DNA from: Opitutaceae bacterium
GTDB taxonomy: Bacteria > Verrucomicrobiota > Verrucomicrobiia > Opitutales > Opitutaceae
Direction of reading: 5' to 3'
Assembly: GCA_027482185.1 (NCBI GenBank)
Contig: JAIXWF010000015.1
Span: 248,001 to 312,000 of the forward strand
Length of the DNA stretch: 64,000 nt
The position numbers and the translations under genes are program-made. This document shows positions 10,677 through 53,629 of this stretch, in pieces. Every line of letters begins with the position of its first letter. Positions within the stretch are counted from its first letter, which is position 1. The notes below the pieces were generated by a model that was not told the DNA's origin, searched no databases, and was given only the letters and a program-made list of their open reading frames with translations.

Positions 10677-10797
10677 CGCCGCGCCCCAGGGCGCGGCGGG
10701 TTGAAAGTTGAAAGTCCTGAGCTGAAAGACGGAATAACTTTCCGCCCGGTCCGGTCGGCGTGACCGATCCTTCAACTTTCACCTTTCAACTTTCAAC
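10677..10797. repeat. GC hairpin plus inverted heptamer arrays between convergent genes
   Basis: A hairpin CGCCGCGCCC/GGGCGCGGCG (10677-10698) is followed by GTTGAAAGTTGAAAG (10700-10714). Its exact reverse complement CTTTCAACTTTCAAC occurs at 10783-10797. Both arms belong to 7-bp period arrays (unit TTCAACT or its complement). The element separates the convergent Ig-protein and lutC genes and may act as a bidirectional terminator, although no classical T-run is present. Confidence 0.75.
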
Positions 10798-15915: not shown

Positions 15916-16217
15916 GAAGAGGAGAGGAAAACCGTGCGTCGCCCCCTCGGCCTTGCAACCGAAATTCCCGGTCCCGGAGGATTGCGGATCGCGAATTGCG
16001 GAATGCGGATTGCCGCCGGCGAAGTCCTCCGCAGCAATGGGTCGGGGAGCGGTCAGCCTTCAGCGGTCAGCTTTCAGCCCTCAGCGTTCAGCTCTCCGCC
16101 GCCAGCATTCCGGTTTCCGGTCTTCGGTTTCCGGTTTTCCATTTCGCCTTTCGCCTTCTCTGTTTCTTCCGTTTCCCGCTTTCCCAATTTTCCGCCTTTC
16201 CCAATTTTCATCCCGCC
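15916..16217. repeat. Heptamer arrays filling lutA-rhaB divergent intergenic region
   Basis: Most of these 302 bases are degenerate 7-bp repeats. ATTGCGG-type units run from 15981 to about 16013, six consecutive TCAGCNN units from about 16054, and TTTCCGG/TTTCCCA-type units up to about 16210, just before the rhaB ATG. No gene and no classic operator could be separated from the repeat. Promoters for both operons must lie within or beside these arrays. Confidence 0.8.
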
Positions 16218-42478: not shown

Positions 42479-42516
42479 GCGCCGCTTGCCGCGGCGCTCA
42501 CGCCAGCACGACTTCG
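42460..42516. repeat. Perfect 26-bp inverted repeat across deoR stop codon
   Basis: Bases 42460-42485 and 42491-42516 are exact reverse complements with a five-base loop (TTGCC). The left arm begins CGAAGTCGTGCTGG and contains the last codons and the stop of the DeoR gene; the right arm is non-coding. It is a very strong hairpin and may terminate transcription, although it is followed by G/T-rich heptamers instead of a T-run. Confidence 0.9.
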
Positions 42517-42722
42517 GGTTTGGGGTTCGGGGTTCGGAGTTCGGAGTTCGGAGTTTTGCGCGGCGCAAATCTCAGGTTCTGGGTTTTGCGTTTTGGGTTT
42601 TGGGTCAGCCGATCCCATCAGCCCTCACCTTCTGCGACTCTTGCGCCTCTTTGCGGCGCTCCGTGCGATCACCCGCGCCTATCCGCCGCGTCCTCTCCGG
42701 TTTCCGGTCTCCGCACTCCGGT
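42517..42722. repeat. Heptamer arrays between deoR and panC
   Basis: Successive 7-bp arrays with unit families TTCGGAG (about 42515-42558), GGGTTTT (about 42572-42604), a CTTTGCG/CTCCGTG-like degenerate stretch (about 42628-42672), and GGTTTCC (about 42695-42722). The orientation changes from G/T-rich to C/T-rich across the gap between these convergent genes. No gene is visible. Confidence 0.78.
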
Positions 42723-45154: not shown

Positions 45155-45946
45155 GTGAAACTCGCCGTCTTCAAATTCGCTCTCCTCGCCGTCCTCGCGG
45201 CGATCCCGGCCCAGGCCCTCTCGGTCCTGGAGCTGTCGAGCGATGAAGCCTTCGCGAAGTTCACCGCGGCCGCGTCGTGGTCCCAGGAAGCCGGCGTCAA
45301 TGTCCGCTGGGGCAACAACGGCAAGGGCGGCCTCTGGGAAATGGCCTTGGTCGACGCCAAGGACAACGCCGTCGCCGGCACCACCCGCCAGGGCAAGGTC
45401 GACGGCTACCGCGCCTTCGGTTTCGATTACGCCAAGGGCACCGCCACCGCGGCCCTCGCCGGTTTCAAATCCGCGCAAACCACGCTGGGCGACGCCGAAC
45501 TCAACACCGTCATCATCCGCGTCCGGGGCGACGATGCGCGCGAGGACGAAGACGAAGACGACGACGGCAAGGGCAAAGGCAAAGGGAAGAACCAGGACGA
45601 CGACGACGACGCCAGCGTCGCCGCCCTCGCCGGTCTCAGCATTTCTTTCGGCTCCGAAGTCTACTCGCTGGGCCAACTCGTCGGCGACAACGACTCCAAC
45701 TATCTCGTGCTGCAGGACACCCGCTTCAGCGGCGTCTGGTCGCTGTTGGCCGACGGCGTGATGTACCATGATCGCGACGACCGCGACCGCGCCCCCTTTT
45801 ACTCGGTGCGCCTGGGCACCACCACGACGTCGGTGCCCGACTCCGCCGCGACCTTCGGTCTGATCTCCGCCGCGCTGCTCGGCACGATTTTGATCCGCCG
45901 GCGTATGCGCGGCGGGAAGCGGGACGCTGTAAGCTTTAAGCGGTAA
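45155..45946 (+). CDS. VPDSG-CTERM sorting-domain protein with acidic low-complexity insert
   Basis: 263 aa from a GTG at 45155, with signal peptide (MKLAVFKFALLAVLAAIPAQ). The C-terminus SVPDSAATFGLISAALLGTI followed by LIRRRMRGGKR is a complete VPDSG-CTERM tripartite signal (motif, helix, basic cluster), recognised by an exosortase-like enzyme outside this window. The central region has an Asp/Glu-rich run and a Gly/Lys-rich run (about 125-150; EDEDEDDDGKGKGKGK) that might bind divalent cations. The final codons (AVSFKR) and the stop are encoded by the start of a heptamer array, so the C-terminal tail has been extended or replaced by repeat sequence. Function unknown. Confidence 0.82.
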   Translation: MKLAVFKFALLAVLAAIPAQALSVLELSSDEAFAKFTAAASWSQEAGVNVRWGNNGKGGLWEMALVDAKDNAVAGTTRQGKVDGYRAFGFDYAKGTATAALAGFKSAQTTLGDAELNTVIIRVRGDDAREDEDEDDDGKGKGKGKNQDDDDDASVAALAGLSISFGSEVYSLGQLVGDNDSNYLVLQDTRFSGVWSLLADGVMYHDRDDRDRAPFYSVRLGTTTTSVPDSAATFGLISAALLGTILIRRRMRGGKRDAVSFKR

Positions 45947-46096
45947 GCTGAAAGCGTTCAGCGATCAGCCTTCAGCGGTCAGCCAACACGACGGCGCTCC
46001 GCGGCGCTGCCGAACTTTTCGCCGGCTCGACCCTGCCCTGCGATCGGTGCTTTCACTGCTTTCCGCTTACCGCTTTCAGCTTTCAGCTTCCCGCTT
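45930..46096. repeat. Paired inverted heptamer arrays between convergent genes
   Basis: Left array: eight units TAAGCNN/TCAGCNN at 45930-45985. Right array: six units NNNGCTT at 46055-46096, largely the reverse complement of the left. The arrays overlap the stop of the VPDSG gene and abut the stop of the lipoprotein gene at 46098, so both convergent transcripts end within a potential long stem. Confidence 0.82.
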
Positions 46097-50458: not shown

Positions 50459-50473
50459 AGCAGGGGGAGGAGC

Positions 50474-50584
50474 GGTCAGCGATCAGCTTTCAGCGATCAG
50501 CAGATCGCCGATCCGCCTTCCGCTCCGGTCGCCTCAAGCTGAGCGCTGACCGCTGATCGCTTTCAGCTTATAGCTTACAACTTC
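50474..50584. repeat. Paired inverted heptamer arrays between convergent genes
   Basis: Left: GGTCAGC, GATCAGC, TTTCAGC, GATCAGC at 50474-50501. Right: GCGCTGA/CCGCTGA/TAGCTTA-type units at 50536-50584, roughly complementary to the left. The right array overlaps the stop codon of the DUF2721 gene (50575). Confidence 0.8.
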
Positions 50585-51027: not shown

Positions 51028-51124
51028 TCCCGCCACCGTGAGGCTTCCGCCCCCGCCGAGTCGAGCCGCGTTCCCGTCCACCCCCGCCCTTGACCGCCCC
51101 CGCCCACGGTAGATGTTGCCAAGA

Positions 51125-51257
51125 GCGATCAGCGGTCAGCTGTCAGCGCTCAGCTTGCAGCGCCCAGCCTTCCGTTTCCCGATTTCCCGATTTTCCAATT
51201 TTCCGATTTTCCGATTTTCTCAGCTCTCCGGTTTCCGGTCTCCGCATTCCGGTTTTC
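51125..51257. repeat. 133-bp heptamer array upstream of recD2
   Basis: Nineteen consecutive 7-bp steps can be laid out from 51125 to 51257. Unit type changes gradually from GCGGTCA to GATTTTCC-like (locally 8-bp period) to GGTTTCC. The array is open in the recD2 frame and would encode a Phe/Ser-rich leader if translation began at 51113. Confidence 0.85.
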
Positions 51258-51268
51258 ATCTCCCCGCC

Positions 51269-53629
51269 TTGCCTCCTCCGCCTTCCCCCGCCGCCCCCGC
51301 CACGCTCACCGGCGTGATCGAGCGGATCATTTTTCTCAACGAGGAGAACCACTACACGATCGCGGAGTTCCGGCCGGATGCGCCGCCCGCCGCCGTCGCC
51401 GCCCGCGAACCCGCCTCCCGCGCCCGGCCCGACACCGTCACCGTCGTCGGCGCCCTCCCCGGCGTCGAATGCGGCGAGACGCTCCACCTTCAGGGCGAAT
51501 GGACGCACCACGCCCAGCACGGCGCCCAGTTCAAGGTCGGCGCGTTCCGCAGCGAGCTCCCGGCCAGCGTGTATGGGATCCGCAAATACCTCGGCAGCGG
51601 CCTCGTCACCGGCATCGGCAAGGTCTACGCCAACAAGATCGTCGACGCCTTCGGCACCGACACCTTCCGCGTCCTCAGCGAGGAATCCGGCCGCCTCCGC
51701 GACGTCCCCGGCATCGGCAAGAAGCGCGCCACCGCGATCAAGCAGGCCTGGGACGCCAAGCGCACGGAACGCGAGCTCTACATTTTCCTCCAGACCTACG
51801 GCGTCACGCCGTCGCAGTGCGTGAAACTCGTCCAGCACTACGGCGCCGAAGCCAAAACGATCCTCACCACGCAGCCCTACAAGGTCGCGCGCGAGATCGA
51901 CGGCATCGGTTTCAAGACCGCCGACCGCATCGCGATCAATCTCGGCTTCGCCAACGACGCCCCGCCCCGCCTCGACGCCGGCCTCATCTACGCCCTCGAA
52001 ACGCTGCAGGAGGAGGGCCACACCGCCTTCCGCGAGGCCGATCTCATCGACCACACCGCCGGCCTGCTCGAAACCGATTCCCGTTTCCTCGCCGCCCGCA
52101 TCGAAGCCCTCGTCGCCGCCAAGGCGTTGGTTCGCCAAGCTCACCAGCACTCAGCGCTCAGCCCTCAGCTCTCAGCCCAAAACCCAGAACTCAAAACCCA
52201 AAACCCAAAACTCCTTCCGCCCAACTCCGCACCCCAAACTCCAAACTCCGAACCGGCCGCGCCCGGCGCGGCCTTGATTCAGCTGCCGCACCACGATCGC
52301 GCGGAACAGAAAATCGCCGCCACCGTCCACCGCCTCAACCGCGTGCCCAGCGGCTTGCCGCCGATCAAGATCGATGCCGCCGTCGCCTGGGCCGAGGAAA
52401 AGGCCGGCTTCGTCTTCGCGGAACTGCAACGCACCGCGCTCCGCCACGCGCTCGCCCACAAGTTCACCGTCCTCACCGGCGGCCCCGGCACCGGCAAGAC
52501 CACCATCCTCCGCGCCCTCGTCGAGATCCTCAAAGCCAAGAAGGTCCGCGTCCACCTCGCCGCCCCCACCGGCCGCGCCGCCCAGCGCCTCTCCGAGACC
52601 ACCGGCGGCTTCGCCACCACGATCCACCGGCTGCTGAAATTCGACGCCGCCAACGGCGGCTTCACCGCCAACGAGAACACGCCCCTCGCCACCGATTTCC
52701 TCATCGTCGACGAGGCCTCGATGCTCGACTCGCGCCTCGCCGCCGCGCTCCTCCAGGCCGTGCCGTCGCGCGCGCACCTGCTGCTCGTCGGCGACACCGA
52801 CCAATTGCCCAGCGTCGGCGCGGGCAACGTGCTCAAAGATCTCATCGCCACGGAACGCATTCCCGTCACGCGCCTCGCCGTCATCTTCCGCCAGCAGGGC
52901 CAAAGCCAGATCGTCACCGTCGCCCACGCCATCAACGCCGGCGACCCCACCCTCCCCGCCGTCCTCCCCGAAGTCGCCAACGCCCAGGTCTGGGCCGATC
53001 TCAATTTCATCGCCGCCACCGACGCCGAAGACTGCCTCGCCAAGGTCCGCCTCCTCGTCACCGAGTTCATTCCGCAAAAACTCAAGTGGCCGCACCCGGT
53101 CAACGACGTGCAGATCCTCGCCCCCATGCACAAGGGCGTCGCCGGCGTCGGCAACCTCAACGCCCAGCTCCAGGCCACGCTCAACCCCCACGCCCGCGGC
53201 CTCCGCACCGTCGCCGGCGAATTCCGTCCGGGCGACAAGATCATCCAGCTGCGCAACAACTACGACAAAAACGTCTTCAACGGCGACATCGGCTCCGTGG
53301 TCGGCATCGATGCCGACGCCGGCACGCTCGACGCCGACTTCGACGGCCAGCGCCTCACCTTCGAGCGCGGCGAACTCGGCGACCTCGCCCTCGCCTACGC
53401 CATCAGCATCCACAAAAGCCAAGGTTCGGAATACCCCGTCGTCATCGTGCCGCTGCTCAAGGCGCACTTCATGATGCTGCAACGCAACCTGCTCTACACC
53501 GCCATCACCCGCGGCAAGAAGAAGGTCTTCCTCGTCGGCGAACCCGCCGCCTACGGCATGGCCGTGCGCAACAGCGAATCGAAACTCCGCGTCACCCATC
53601 TGCGCGAAAAAATCGCCGCCACGGCCTGA
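51269..53629 (+). CDS. recD2: RecD2-type ATP-dependent DNA helicase with heptamer-array insertion
   Basis: 786 aa from TTG at 51269. Order: N-terminal OB-like domain (TLTGVIERIIFLNEENHYTI), helix-hairpin-helix region (GIGKVYANKIV, VPGIGKKRATAI, GIGFKTADRIA), then SF1B helicase motifs: Walker A GGPGTGKTT, APTGRAAQRLSE, Walker B IVDEASMLD, VGDTDQLPSVGAGNVL, IFRQ, and the C-terminal DLALAYAISIHKSQGSEYP and YTAITRGKK. These identify RecD2, a 5'-3' DNA helicase in repair. Residues about 294-328 are encoded by an in-frame 105-bp heptamer array between the winged-helix-like region and the helicase core. The ATG at 51113 is an alternative start but would add a repeat-encoded leader; the TTG context (TTTTCATC...CCGCC) resembles that of rhaB. 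Confidence 0.9.
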   Translation: MPPPPSPAAPATLTGVIERIIFLNEENHYTIAEFRPDAPPAAVAAREPASRARPDTVTVVGALPGVECGETLHLQGEWTHHAQHGAQFKVGAFRSELPASVYGIRKYLGSGLVTGIGKVYANKIVDAFGTDTFRVLSEESGRLRDVPGIGKKRATAIKQAWDAKRTERELYIFLQTYGVTPSQCVKLVQHYGAEAKTILTTQPYKVAREIDGIGFKTADRIAINLGFANDAPPRLDAGLIYALETLQEEGHTAFREADLIDHTAGLLETDSRFLAARIEALVAAKALVRQAHQHSALSPQLSAQNPELKTQNPKLLPPNSAPQTPNSEPAAPGAALIQLPHHDRAEQKIAATVHRLNRVPSGLPPIKIDAAVAWAEEKAGFVFAELQRTALRHALAHKFTVLTGGPGTGKTTILRALVEILKAKKVRVHLAAPTGRAAQRLSETTGGFATTIHRLLKFDAANGGFTANENTPLATDFLIVDEASMLDSRLAAALLQAVPSRAHLLLVGDTDQLPSVGAGNVLKDLIATERIPVTRLAVIFRQQGQSQIVTVAHAINAGDPTLPAVLPEVANAQVWADLNFIAATDAEDCLAKVRLLVTEFIPQKLKWPHPVNDVQILAPMHKGVAGVGNLNAQLQATLNPHARGLRTVAGEFRPGDKIIQLRNNYDKNVFNGDIGSVVGIDADAGTLDADFDGQRLTFERGELGDLALAYAISIHKSQGSEYPVVIVPLLKAHFMMLQRNLLYTAITRGKKKVFLVGEPAAYGMAVRNSESKLRVTHLREKIAATA
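52148..52252 (+). repeat. 105-bp heptamer array inside the recD2 coding sequence
   Basis: Fifteen exact 7-bp steps: four CNCTCAG units, then CCCAAAA-type, then CTCCAAA-type units. 105 bp equals 35 codons, so the frame is kept. The encoded peptide is Ser/Gln/Asn/Pro-rich (ALSPQLSAQNPELKTQNPKL) and lies in an expected linker. Confidence 0.9.

Follow-up and report, generated by a model that had tools for sequence, protein, structure and literature searches.

How does an array of 7-bp units come to lie in frame inside the gene of a conserved DNA-repair helicase, and why has it been kept there? The question is raised by a window of 64,000 nucleotides (positions 248001-312000 of the 586-kb contig C20, JAIXWF010000015.1) of the Opitutaceae bacterium assembly GCA_027482185.1, here called genome G000 (6.43 Mb, 24 contigs), in which the gene recD2 carries fifteen consecutive heptamers at 52148-52252 of the forward strand. 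The answer favored here, with a probability of roughly 0.8, is that the array represents a dispersed copy of degenerate 7-bp repeats that occur genome-wide, tolerated in the linker of RecD2 in the G000 lineage.

The heptamer array and its host gene

The array comprises exactly 105 bases, with its 15 heptamers in register and its first base on a recD2 codon boundary, and it encodes HSALSPQLSAQNPELKTQNPKLLPPNSAPQTPNSE. An earlier note, made from the sequence alone, had described fifteen 7-bp units (105 bp, 35 codons) inserted in frame, a description which the sequence and the listing of its units bear out. The heptamers are degenerate units rather than perfect copies. When read in the phase NN+5, four NNTCAGC units are followed by five NNAAAAC or NNAGAAC units (the CAAAACC kind), one CCTTCCG-like unit and then units of the CCAAC, CGCAC, CAAAC and CGAAC types. 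The best match over 70 bases reaches 0.71 at lag 7 and does not exceed 0.47 at lags 4-29 other than multiples of 7. With a scoring of +1 or -1 per position, the lag-7 segment extends over 52145-52253 and scores 46, whereas 2000 codon shuffles of recD2 score 6.5 on average and never above 16. This score is also the highest among 339 called genes (the window plus 400 kb), where the runners-up reach 21 and 17. Tandem Repeats Finder reports only 52145-52178 and 52176-52211 here, leaving the 3′ part undetected. The recD2 heptamer array is real and beyond chance, and since its 7-bp period runs out of step with the codons, selection on the peptide is an unlikely source of it. A role as hairpin or terminator was considered and rejected, as the array has no stable fold (-4.2 kcal/mol; mononucleotide shuffles give z -0.8), in contrast to the inverted pairs between genes described below.

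The host gene (51314-53629, forward strand, called from GTG 51314) encodes an SF1B helicase, and its sequence identifies it as a genuine RecD2. The open reading frame (ORF) matches TIGR01448 at 795 bits (cut-off 500) and the solved structure 3e1s with an E-value of 3.4e-89, while Pfam searches of the 838-aa ORF place OB_YrrC at 64-150, HHH_RecD2 at 216-304 and AAA_30 at 438-613, with an SH3 domain also present. In this numbering the array codes for residues 346-380, between HHH_RecD2 and AAA_30. An AlphaFold model started from GTG 51314, and built from 26 of 30 sequences, has a mean predicted local distance difference test (pLDDT) score of 75.1, and residues 279-314 fall below 50; the lag-7 segment codes for residues 278-313 in the same numbering. 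Other regions below 50 are residues 1-17, 22-38 and three short stretches. The array-coded stretch is thus predicted to be a disordered linker of RecD2, and both the Pfam domains and the model agree with the position that the earlier note had assigned to it, a linker before the ATP-binding core.

The start codon of recD2 is less certain. In-frame TTG 51269, ATG 51113 and others are possible upstream, and the residues ATLTG directly before 51314 belong to the consensus of relatives, which suggests that the true start probably lies upstream of 51314. A second heptamer array, unmentioned in the earlier note, occupies 51124-51251 of the forward strand, at the 5′ end of this ORF or immediately upstream of it. 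It would be fully translated only from ATG 51113 or TTG 51116 and, given the uncertain start codon, may be either a leader or an N-terminal extension.

The RecD2 linker in related genomes

A search for RecD2 in 57 genomes (one per species, G000 included) gave a match in 56, some of them matching only other helicases, such as G006, G042 and G052, with weak E-values. The loci of 29 relatives were aligned, of which L018 breaks off within the linker, so that 28 linkers are complete. The array is absent from all 28, a result which fits a lineage-specific gain, and the protein on both sides of it is continuous with the family, as claimed. With the same column cut, the linkers of these relatives measure 12-54 residues, with a median of 18 and a commonest length of 16 (9 of 28); in G012 and G029, part of the linker residues falls beyond the cut. 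The G000 linker has 48 residues and exceeds 26 of the 28. Compared with the commonest length, the net change amounts to 32 codons, or 96 bp.

A tree of 27 sequences, built with the linker removed, places G018 as the sister of G000 (local support 0.94); the G018 linker holds an unrelated, non-heptad insert at the same place. RecD2 core identities to G000 are 85.7% for G018 and 86.3% for G020. As the G018 insert is unrelated, the array would have been gained on the G000 branch, or else lost from G018, where another insert replaced it; a gain is the simpler reading. The closest species among those searched is G006, by the identity of MutL (92%) and UvrA (94%), and all candidates scored in its 85%-complete assembly left no RecD2.

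Repeats of other kinds occupy the same linker elsewhere. In G029 it holds a palindrome with at least 73 matches in its own genome (both strands; 40 of 187 candidates scored), together with a short heptad run of CTCAGCT units (26 bp, lag-7 score 19), and in G020 it holds another palindrome with 19 matches in its own genome (both strands). G012 shows a CTCAACC-like run of 27 bp, whose lag-7 score of 14 lies inside the chance range of shuffle maxima. The RecD2 linker is a permissive site, which unrelated repeats have entered on more than one occasion.

Additional features have been observed in RecD2 of these relatives. A dispersed palindrome around GACGCCCTCGTC or similar lies in frame in the linkers of G029 (L015), G025 (L007) and G017 (L034), those of G025 and G017 being likened by eye and dispersal tested in G029 only. 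A heptad run of AAAATCC units (score 22) lies in a second loop of G028 RecD2 (L026), and in G035 (L033) a long run (score 68) close to the frame's 5′ end is possibly a leader. Close to the P-loop, RecD2 of G017 (L034:1411-4221) and G020 (L032) also has an insertion of some 350 residues. It matches LAGLIDADG_3 (about 8e-9) and in G017 also Hint_2, though weakly (0.0017). Judging from these profile matches, the insertion is probably an intein with a homing endonuclease.

Arrays inside other genes

Arrays within genes were sought in a 1.664-Mb sample of G000 (the window, C3:1-800000 and C19:1-800000) with a segment threshold of score ≥17 and 1193 home-made gene calls. Here, 24 arrays lie at least 90% inside called genes, distributed over 14 genes, while five replicates of codon shuffling across all 1193 genes gave 0, 0, 0, 0 and 0 arrays. 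The statement that arrays can enter genes consequently holds, with UvrA and MutL among the hosts. The 14 genes include RecD2, UvrA (six arrays), MutL, two Hsp70-like genes, DUF1501, DUF1365 (two arrays), GcvP, two DUF1549/1553 genes (three arrays and one), HisH and the gene at C19:718707 (three arrays). The names derive from profiles, which were run on all but C3:8223, C3:767781 and C19:718707. The array of HisH (C19:666552) is N-terminal, ahead of the domain, and may be an untranslated leader; C3:8223 (DUF1549-like by eye) and C3:767781, both with a score of 17, are weak cases. A special link with repair genes was considered, as three of the 14 belong to this group, and not adopted, given that recD2 had been preselected and that all three encode long multi-domain proteins.

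The uvrA gene of G000 has double length (1988 aa; C3:427206-433172, minus strand; L232:7206-13172) and contains six in-frame heptamer arrays, two of which lie in a loop between what are presumably the ABC signature and Walker B motifs. Similar peptides have been observed by eye, at the protein level, in the array-holding loop of UvrA from G004 and G005. G000 has one heptad block of 11 codons (33 bp) that G006 lacks, the two proteins being 94% identical over nearly their full length. Other relatives have other residues at this site, so that gain and loss are not polarized with certainty. G006 UvrA has a CTCAAC-type segment at residues 1727-1737 of its stop-to-stop frame, with no G000 counterpart above threshold. 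In MutL (C3:45839-47671, L067) an in-frame array codes for residues 331-357, in the interdomain linker between Pfam domains at 209-326 and 427-563. Arrays in this linker are common to G000 and G006, unlike in length and content and both in frame, and the proteins measure 610 and 628 residues, with extra in-frame heptad blocks in G006. The array differences observed between the two genomes in mutL and uvrA keep the frame.

These comparisons bear on the length that an inserted array can have. It had been proposed that arrays survive in genes when their length is a multiple of 21 bp, a rule which fails, since neither the net change of 96 bp in RecD2 nor the 33-bp block in UvrA is such a multiple; divisibility by three and freedom from stop codons suffice. 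Concerning the latter, the six TCAGC- or TCAAC-type arrays lying at least 90% in genes (RecD2 and C19:8090, 10132, 21869, 22350 and 632098) are all, on our own reading, on the stop-free strand. Two-unit matches in called genes are less skewed, with 7 sense and 4 antisense for TCAAC and 2 sense and 1 antisense for TCAGC. As this bias is weak, a stop filter is clear only for the longer arrays.

Genome-wide distribution and placement

The array in recD2 has numerous counterparts in its own genome. A search with 146 bases of linker DNA found at least 60 places at E ≤ 1, itself included, a lower bound since 40 of 197 first-look candidates were scored. The best other copy is 84% identical over 80 bp. 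In the nine best other copies, AAAACCC-type units are followed by AACTCCG/A-type units, in the same order as in the recD2 array, with a spacer of ~1-3 units between the blocks in eight of the nine and none in L092.

Across the 1.664-Mb sample, 158 segments were detected at lag 7, with 1, 18, 1, 1 and 1 at lags 5, 8, 10, 11 and 13. Although ~90% of the sample was called coding, 112 of the 158 segments are at most 10% coding, 24 are at least 90% coding and 22 are intermediate. Arrays occur in 47 of 180 convergent spacers, 58 of 688 tandem spacers and 6 of 188 divergent ones. A strand polarity has been detected near gene 3′ ends, where TCAAC-type units are antisense in 85 cases (GTTGA on the coding strand) and sense in 7. 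Among other units, GGAAACC occurs 17 times sense and 5 antisense, AAAACCC 2 sense and 11 antisense, and TCAGC, more weakly polarized, 22 sense and 13 antisense. Two or more GTTGANN units begin within 70 nt after the stop codon in 83 of the 1193 genes, 32 of them with an inverted arm downstream, and in 64 of the 83 the run starts 10-34 nt past the stop. The stretches between stop and run fold more stably than controls (median -6.2 versus -2.85 kcal/mol; 68 versus 200 stretches), so the arrays are placed as if just past a terminator hairpin. A start-codon motif, TTTTCAT, was also considered as a companion of arrays and discarded, having been found at only 4 of the 1193 genes (~0.8 expected), one of the four lying beside an array by eye.

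Several of these arrays lie in the window itself. An intergenic array of the same TCAGC/TTCCGG kind as in recD2 occupies 16043-16157 of the forward strand. At 45912-45983 (forward strand) an array at a gene 3′ end, inside which the called gene 45155-45946 terminates, forms the left arm of an inverted pair with 46058-46096 (reverse strand), and between convergent genes the arms 50471-50523 (forward) and 50538-50583 (reverse) pair likewise. No strand is assigned to the remaining features, which are a TTCAAC-type array between convergent genes at 10771-10797, a GGATTGC-type array at 15979-16013, and two arrays of the TTCGGAG and GGTTTTG kinds at 42513-42605, the opposite strand of which resembles the unit families found in the recD2 array over its 3′ two thirds. 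Inverted pairs between neighboring genes form long hairpins at 45912-46096, 50471-50583, C3:160348-160484, C3:368324-368402 and others. When folded, eight of nine hand-chosen intergenic pairs gave z from -3.6 to -10.4 against mononucleotide shuffles, and the ninth gave -1.7.

Occurrence in other genomes

Heptads are widespread but patchy, and the units differ by genome. Overlapping matches to TCAGCNN triplets number 228 in G000 (reversed control 0) and 66 in G006, with at most 11 in each of the others among 54 genomes; the heptad is present in 17 of the 54, G000 included. Among 288 genomes of the phylum, 44 have such triplets, with 371 in G239. In some genomes the reversed control accounts for all or most of the matches, which means that they have other heptads, as in G018 (15 for the control versus 1). 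In 20 relatives, represented by one stretch of 15-20 kb each (389.9 kb in total), 12 lag-7 segments were found at a threshold of 15, in 8 of the 20, and other lags gave fewer (lag 8, 7; lag 10, 2; lags 4 and 11, 1 each); the comparison count in G000 was 53 lag-7 segments in 464 kb. In a scan of named genomes, TCAGCNN arrays occur, among the matches listed, in records of many phyla, cyanobacteria included. A restriction to one lineage was considered and rejected. Pairs of TCAGC heptads on opposite strands, 28-110 bp apart, have also been observed in records of other phyla (L118, L132, L145, L154 and L155).

Origin of the array

The proposed course of events is that a copy of an array, or a seed later grown by 7-bp slippage, would have landed in the disordered linker between the HHH and ATPase domains of RecD2. 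It would have been kept because the loop tolerates additional residues, the strand read by the gene is free of stops and the net change in length is a multiple of three. Most likely the array has no function in RecD2, and its retention would be selectively neutral. Its arrival would have been by copying from another array rather than by growth in place, and the block order common to nine other copies favors copying over independent growth without proving it. Growth in place would require a short C/A-rich ancestral linker to mutate to a two-unit seed and expand by slippage to 15 units with no incoming copy. The gradual drift of units along the array, in which adjacent units are often most alike, is in keeping with this, as are the short runs of different heptads in the linkers of G029 and G012, the latter in the chance range. 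A proposal quoted in the excerpt of PMC4692102, which attributes the 7-nt size to polymerase contact and slippage, also points in this direction. This course is nevertheless rather unlikely, since the block order recurs in nine other genome copies and three or more unit families per array are hard to derive by slippage from one seed. Less likely still is that the 7-bp step itself spreads through a dedicated process of copying or synthesis, one that writes heptads and leaves their sequence free; recD2, uvrA and mutL would then carry recent write events. Unrelated unit families with one period, 3′-end polarity, convergent inverted pairs and in-frame entries would point to such a process and, if it were true, the three arrays would be readable like a fossil record.

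Other explanations appear far less probable. That 7-bp slippage might shift the frame and toggle recD2, and likewise mutL and uvrA, between reversible mutator states as a contingency locus draws on the three repair genes among the 14 hosts and on a unit length that is not a multiple of three. Such a role is highly improbable, given that no near-perfect run in recD2 reaches three units, that degenerate units imply slow slippage, and that the frame is kept in mutL and uvrA of both compared genomes; moreover, none of the other 11 hosts (8 of which were run against profiles) was recognized as a repair gene, and the preselection of RecD2 biases the proportion. It is just as doubtful that the insert, rich in Pro, Gln, Asn and Ser, is a functional peptide providing RecD2 with a new contact surface or spacing. 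Its intact frame and the folded domains on either side would suit this idea, but peptides like it are encoded by unrelated genes (GcvP, Hsp70-like, DUF1365 and UvrA), and unrelated sequence fills the same linker in relatives. An artefact of assembly or binning comes to mind from the long near-perfect runs at or near contig starts, TCAGCGG on C8 (2-146) and TCAGCTC on C1 (538-619), which indicate that long perfect arrays may break the G000 assembly. It is the least probable explanation of all, as the recD2 array is degenerate, lies inside a 586-kb contig in an ORF that is open through it, and has in-gene parallels, in the form of orthologous arrays, in the separately assembled G006.

Some points nonetheless weigh against a tolerated dispersed copy gained in the G000 lineage. 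The linker of G018 also holds an insert, so that gain on the G000 branch is not the sole reading, and the nearest RecD2 proteins share only ~86% core identity, with no close strain offering an empty recD2 site. The shared block order could have arisen by convergence, similar units being plentiful in this genome, and long disordered linkers are loosely constrained, which leaves room for a functional role. In addition, 4 of 11 TCAAC and 1 of 3 TCAGC two-unit matches in genes lie on the stop-containing strand, and the gene calls do not come from a standard annotation.

Comparison with known repeat systems

The short tandemly repeated repetitive (STRR) sequences of heterocystous cyanobacteria such as Calothrix and Nostoc have a 7-bp unit, with several unit sequences per genome. 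A 1997 report by Vioque, to judge by its title, is said to place one inside the cyanobacterial RNase P RNA gene (rnpB). The arrays described here are like STRR in their 7-bp unit, in the several units per genome and in being tolerated inside a gene; a 7-bp period far above the other periods tested and the many mainly non-coding copies (112 of 158 segments) agree with this kind. They are unlike STRR in their protein-coding hosts, in unit families that change along one array and in their lineage.

Three Calothrix heptanucleotides are also mentioned in the excerpt of PMC4692102, which describes the heptamers GGGAATC and GGGGA(C/T)T of Xanthomonas and Nostoc. These share the 7-bp unit and agree in part in their placement near genes; they are, according to the same excerpt, G-quadruplex-forming with a preference for four copies, whereas many unit families are present here. 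The excerpt leaves the role of abundant bacterial heptanucleotide repeats open. The TAACTGA repeats of marine Beggiatoaceae, as far as described in the excerpt of PMC4679880, are likewise heptanucleotide arrays which are mostly intergenic with some in ORFs, the coding regions of 25 proteins containing or overlapping 24 repeat sets, and their stop-free orientation is the one able to sit inside a protein. They differ in having one unit, located mostly before start codons, and ORF copies mainly at protein ends, whereas internal linkers of conserved enzymes are occupied here. As in the Rickettsia palindromic elements (excerpt of the review PMC10969869), dispersed repeats occur in frame in unrelated conserved genes, here UvrA, MutL, GcvP and Hsp70-like genes; those elements are palindromes of ~150 bp, whereas the recD2 array is unfolded (z -0.8), without palindrome or stem. 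The constant-length, variable-sequence tandem repeats of Bacillus and other bacteria, in the excerpt of PMC8161180, similarly keep a period while the sequence varies, with several families per species, their periods being 20-21 and 52 nt as opposed to 7.

In the one literature collection searched, no paper was found on heptamer arrays in Verrucomicrobia, nor on any in RecD2, MutL or UvrA. Nor was a description found there of multi-family degenerate heptads recurring in frame within linkers inside conserved enzymes of repair and metabolism, with a site filled in one sister species and empty in the other. The orthologous arrays of UvrA and MutL that differ between sisters offer occupied and unoccupied sites whose reading frame serves as an internal reporter, so that the origin, growth and selective filtering of arrays become measurable. 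In RecD2, UvrA and MutL, the positions of the arrays also point to loops in which tens of additional residues are apparently tolerated. The kind itself is already known, both as heptanucleotide repeats with some ORF-internal copies and as dispersed in-frame repeats, within what is described in the excerpts of PMC4692102, PMC4679880 and PMC10969869. The recD2 array is no new kind of system and, next to these, constitutes a useful natural example of repeat DNA entering conserved proteins.

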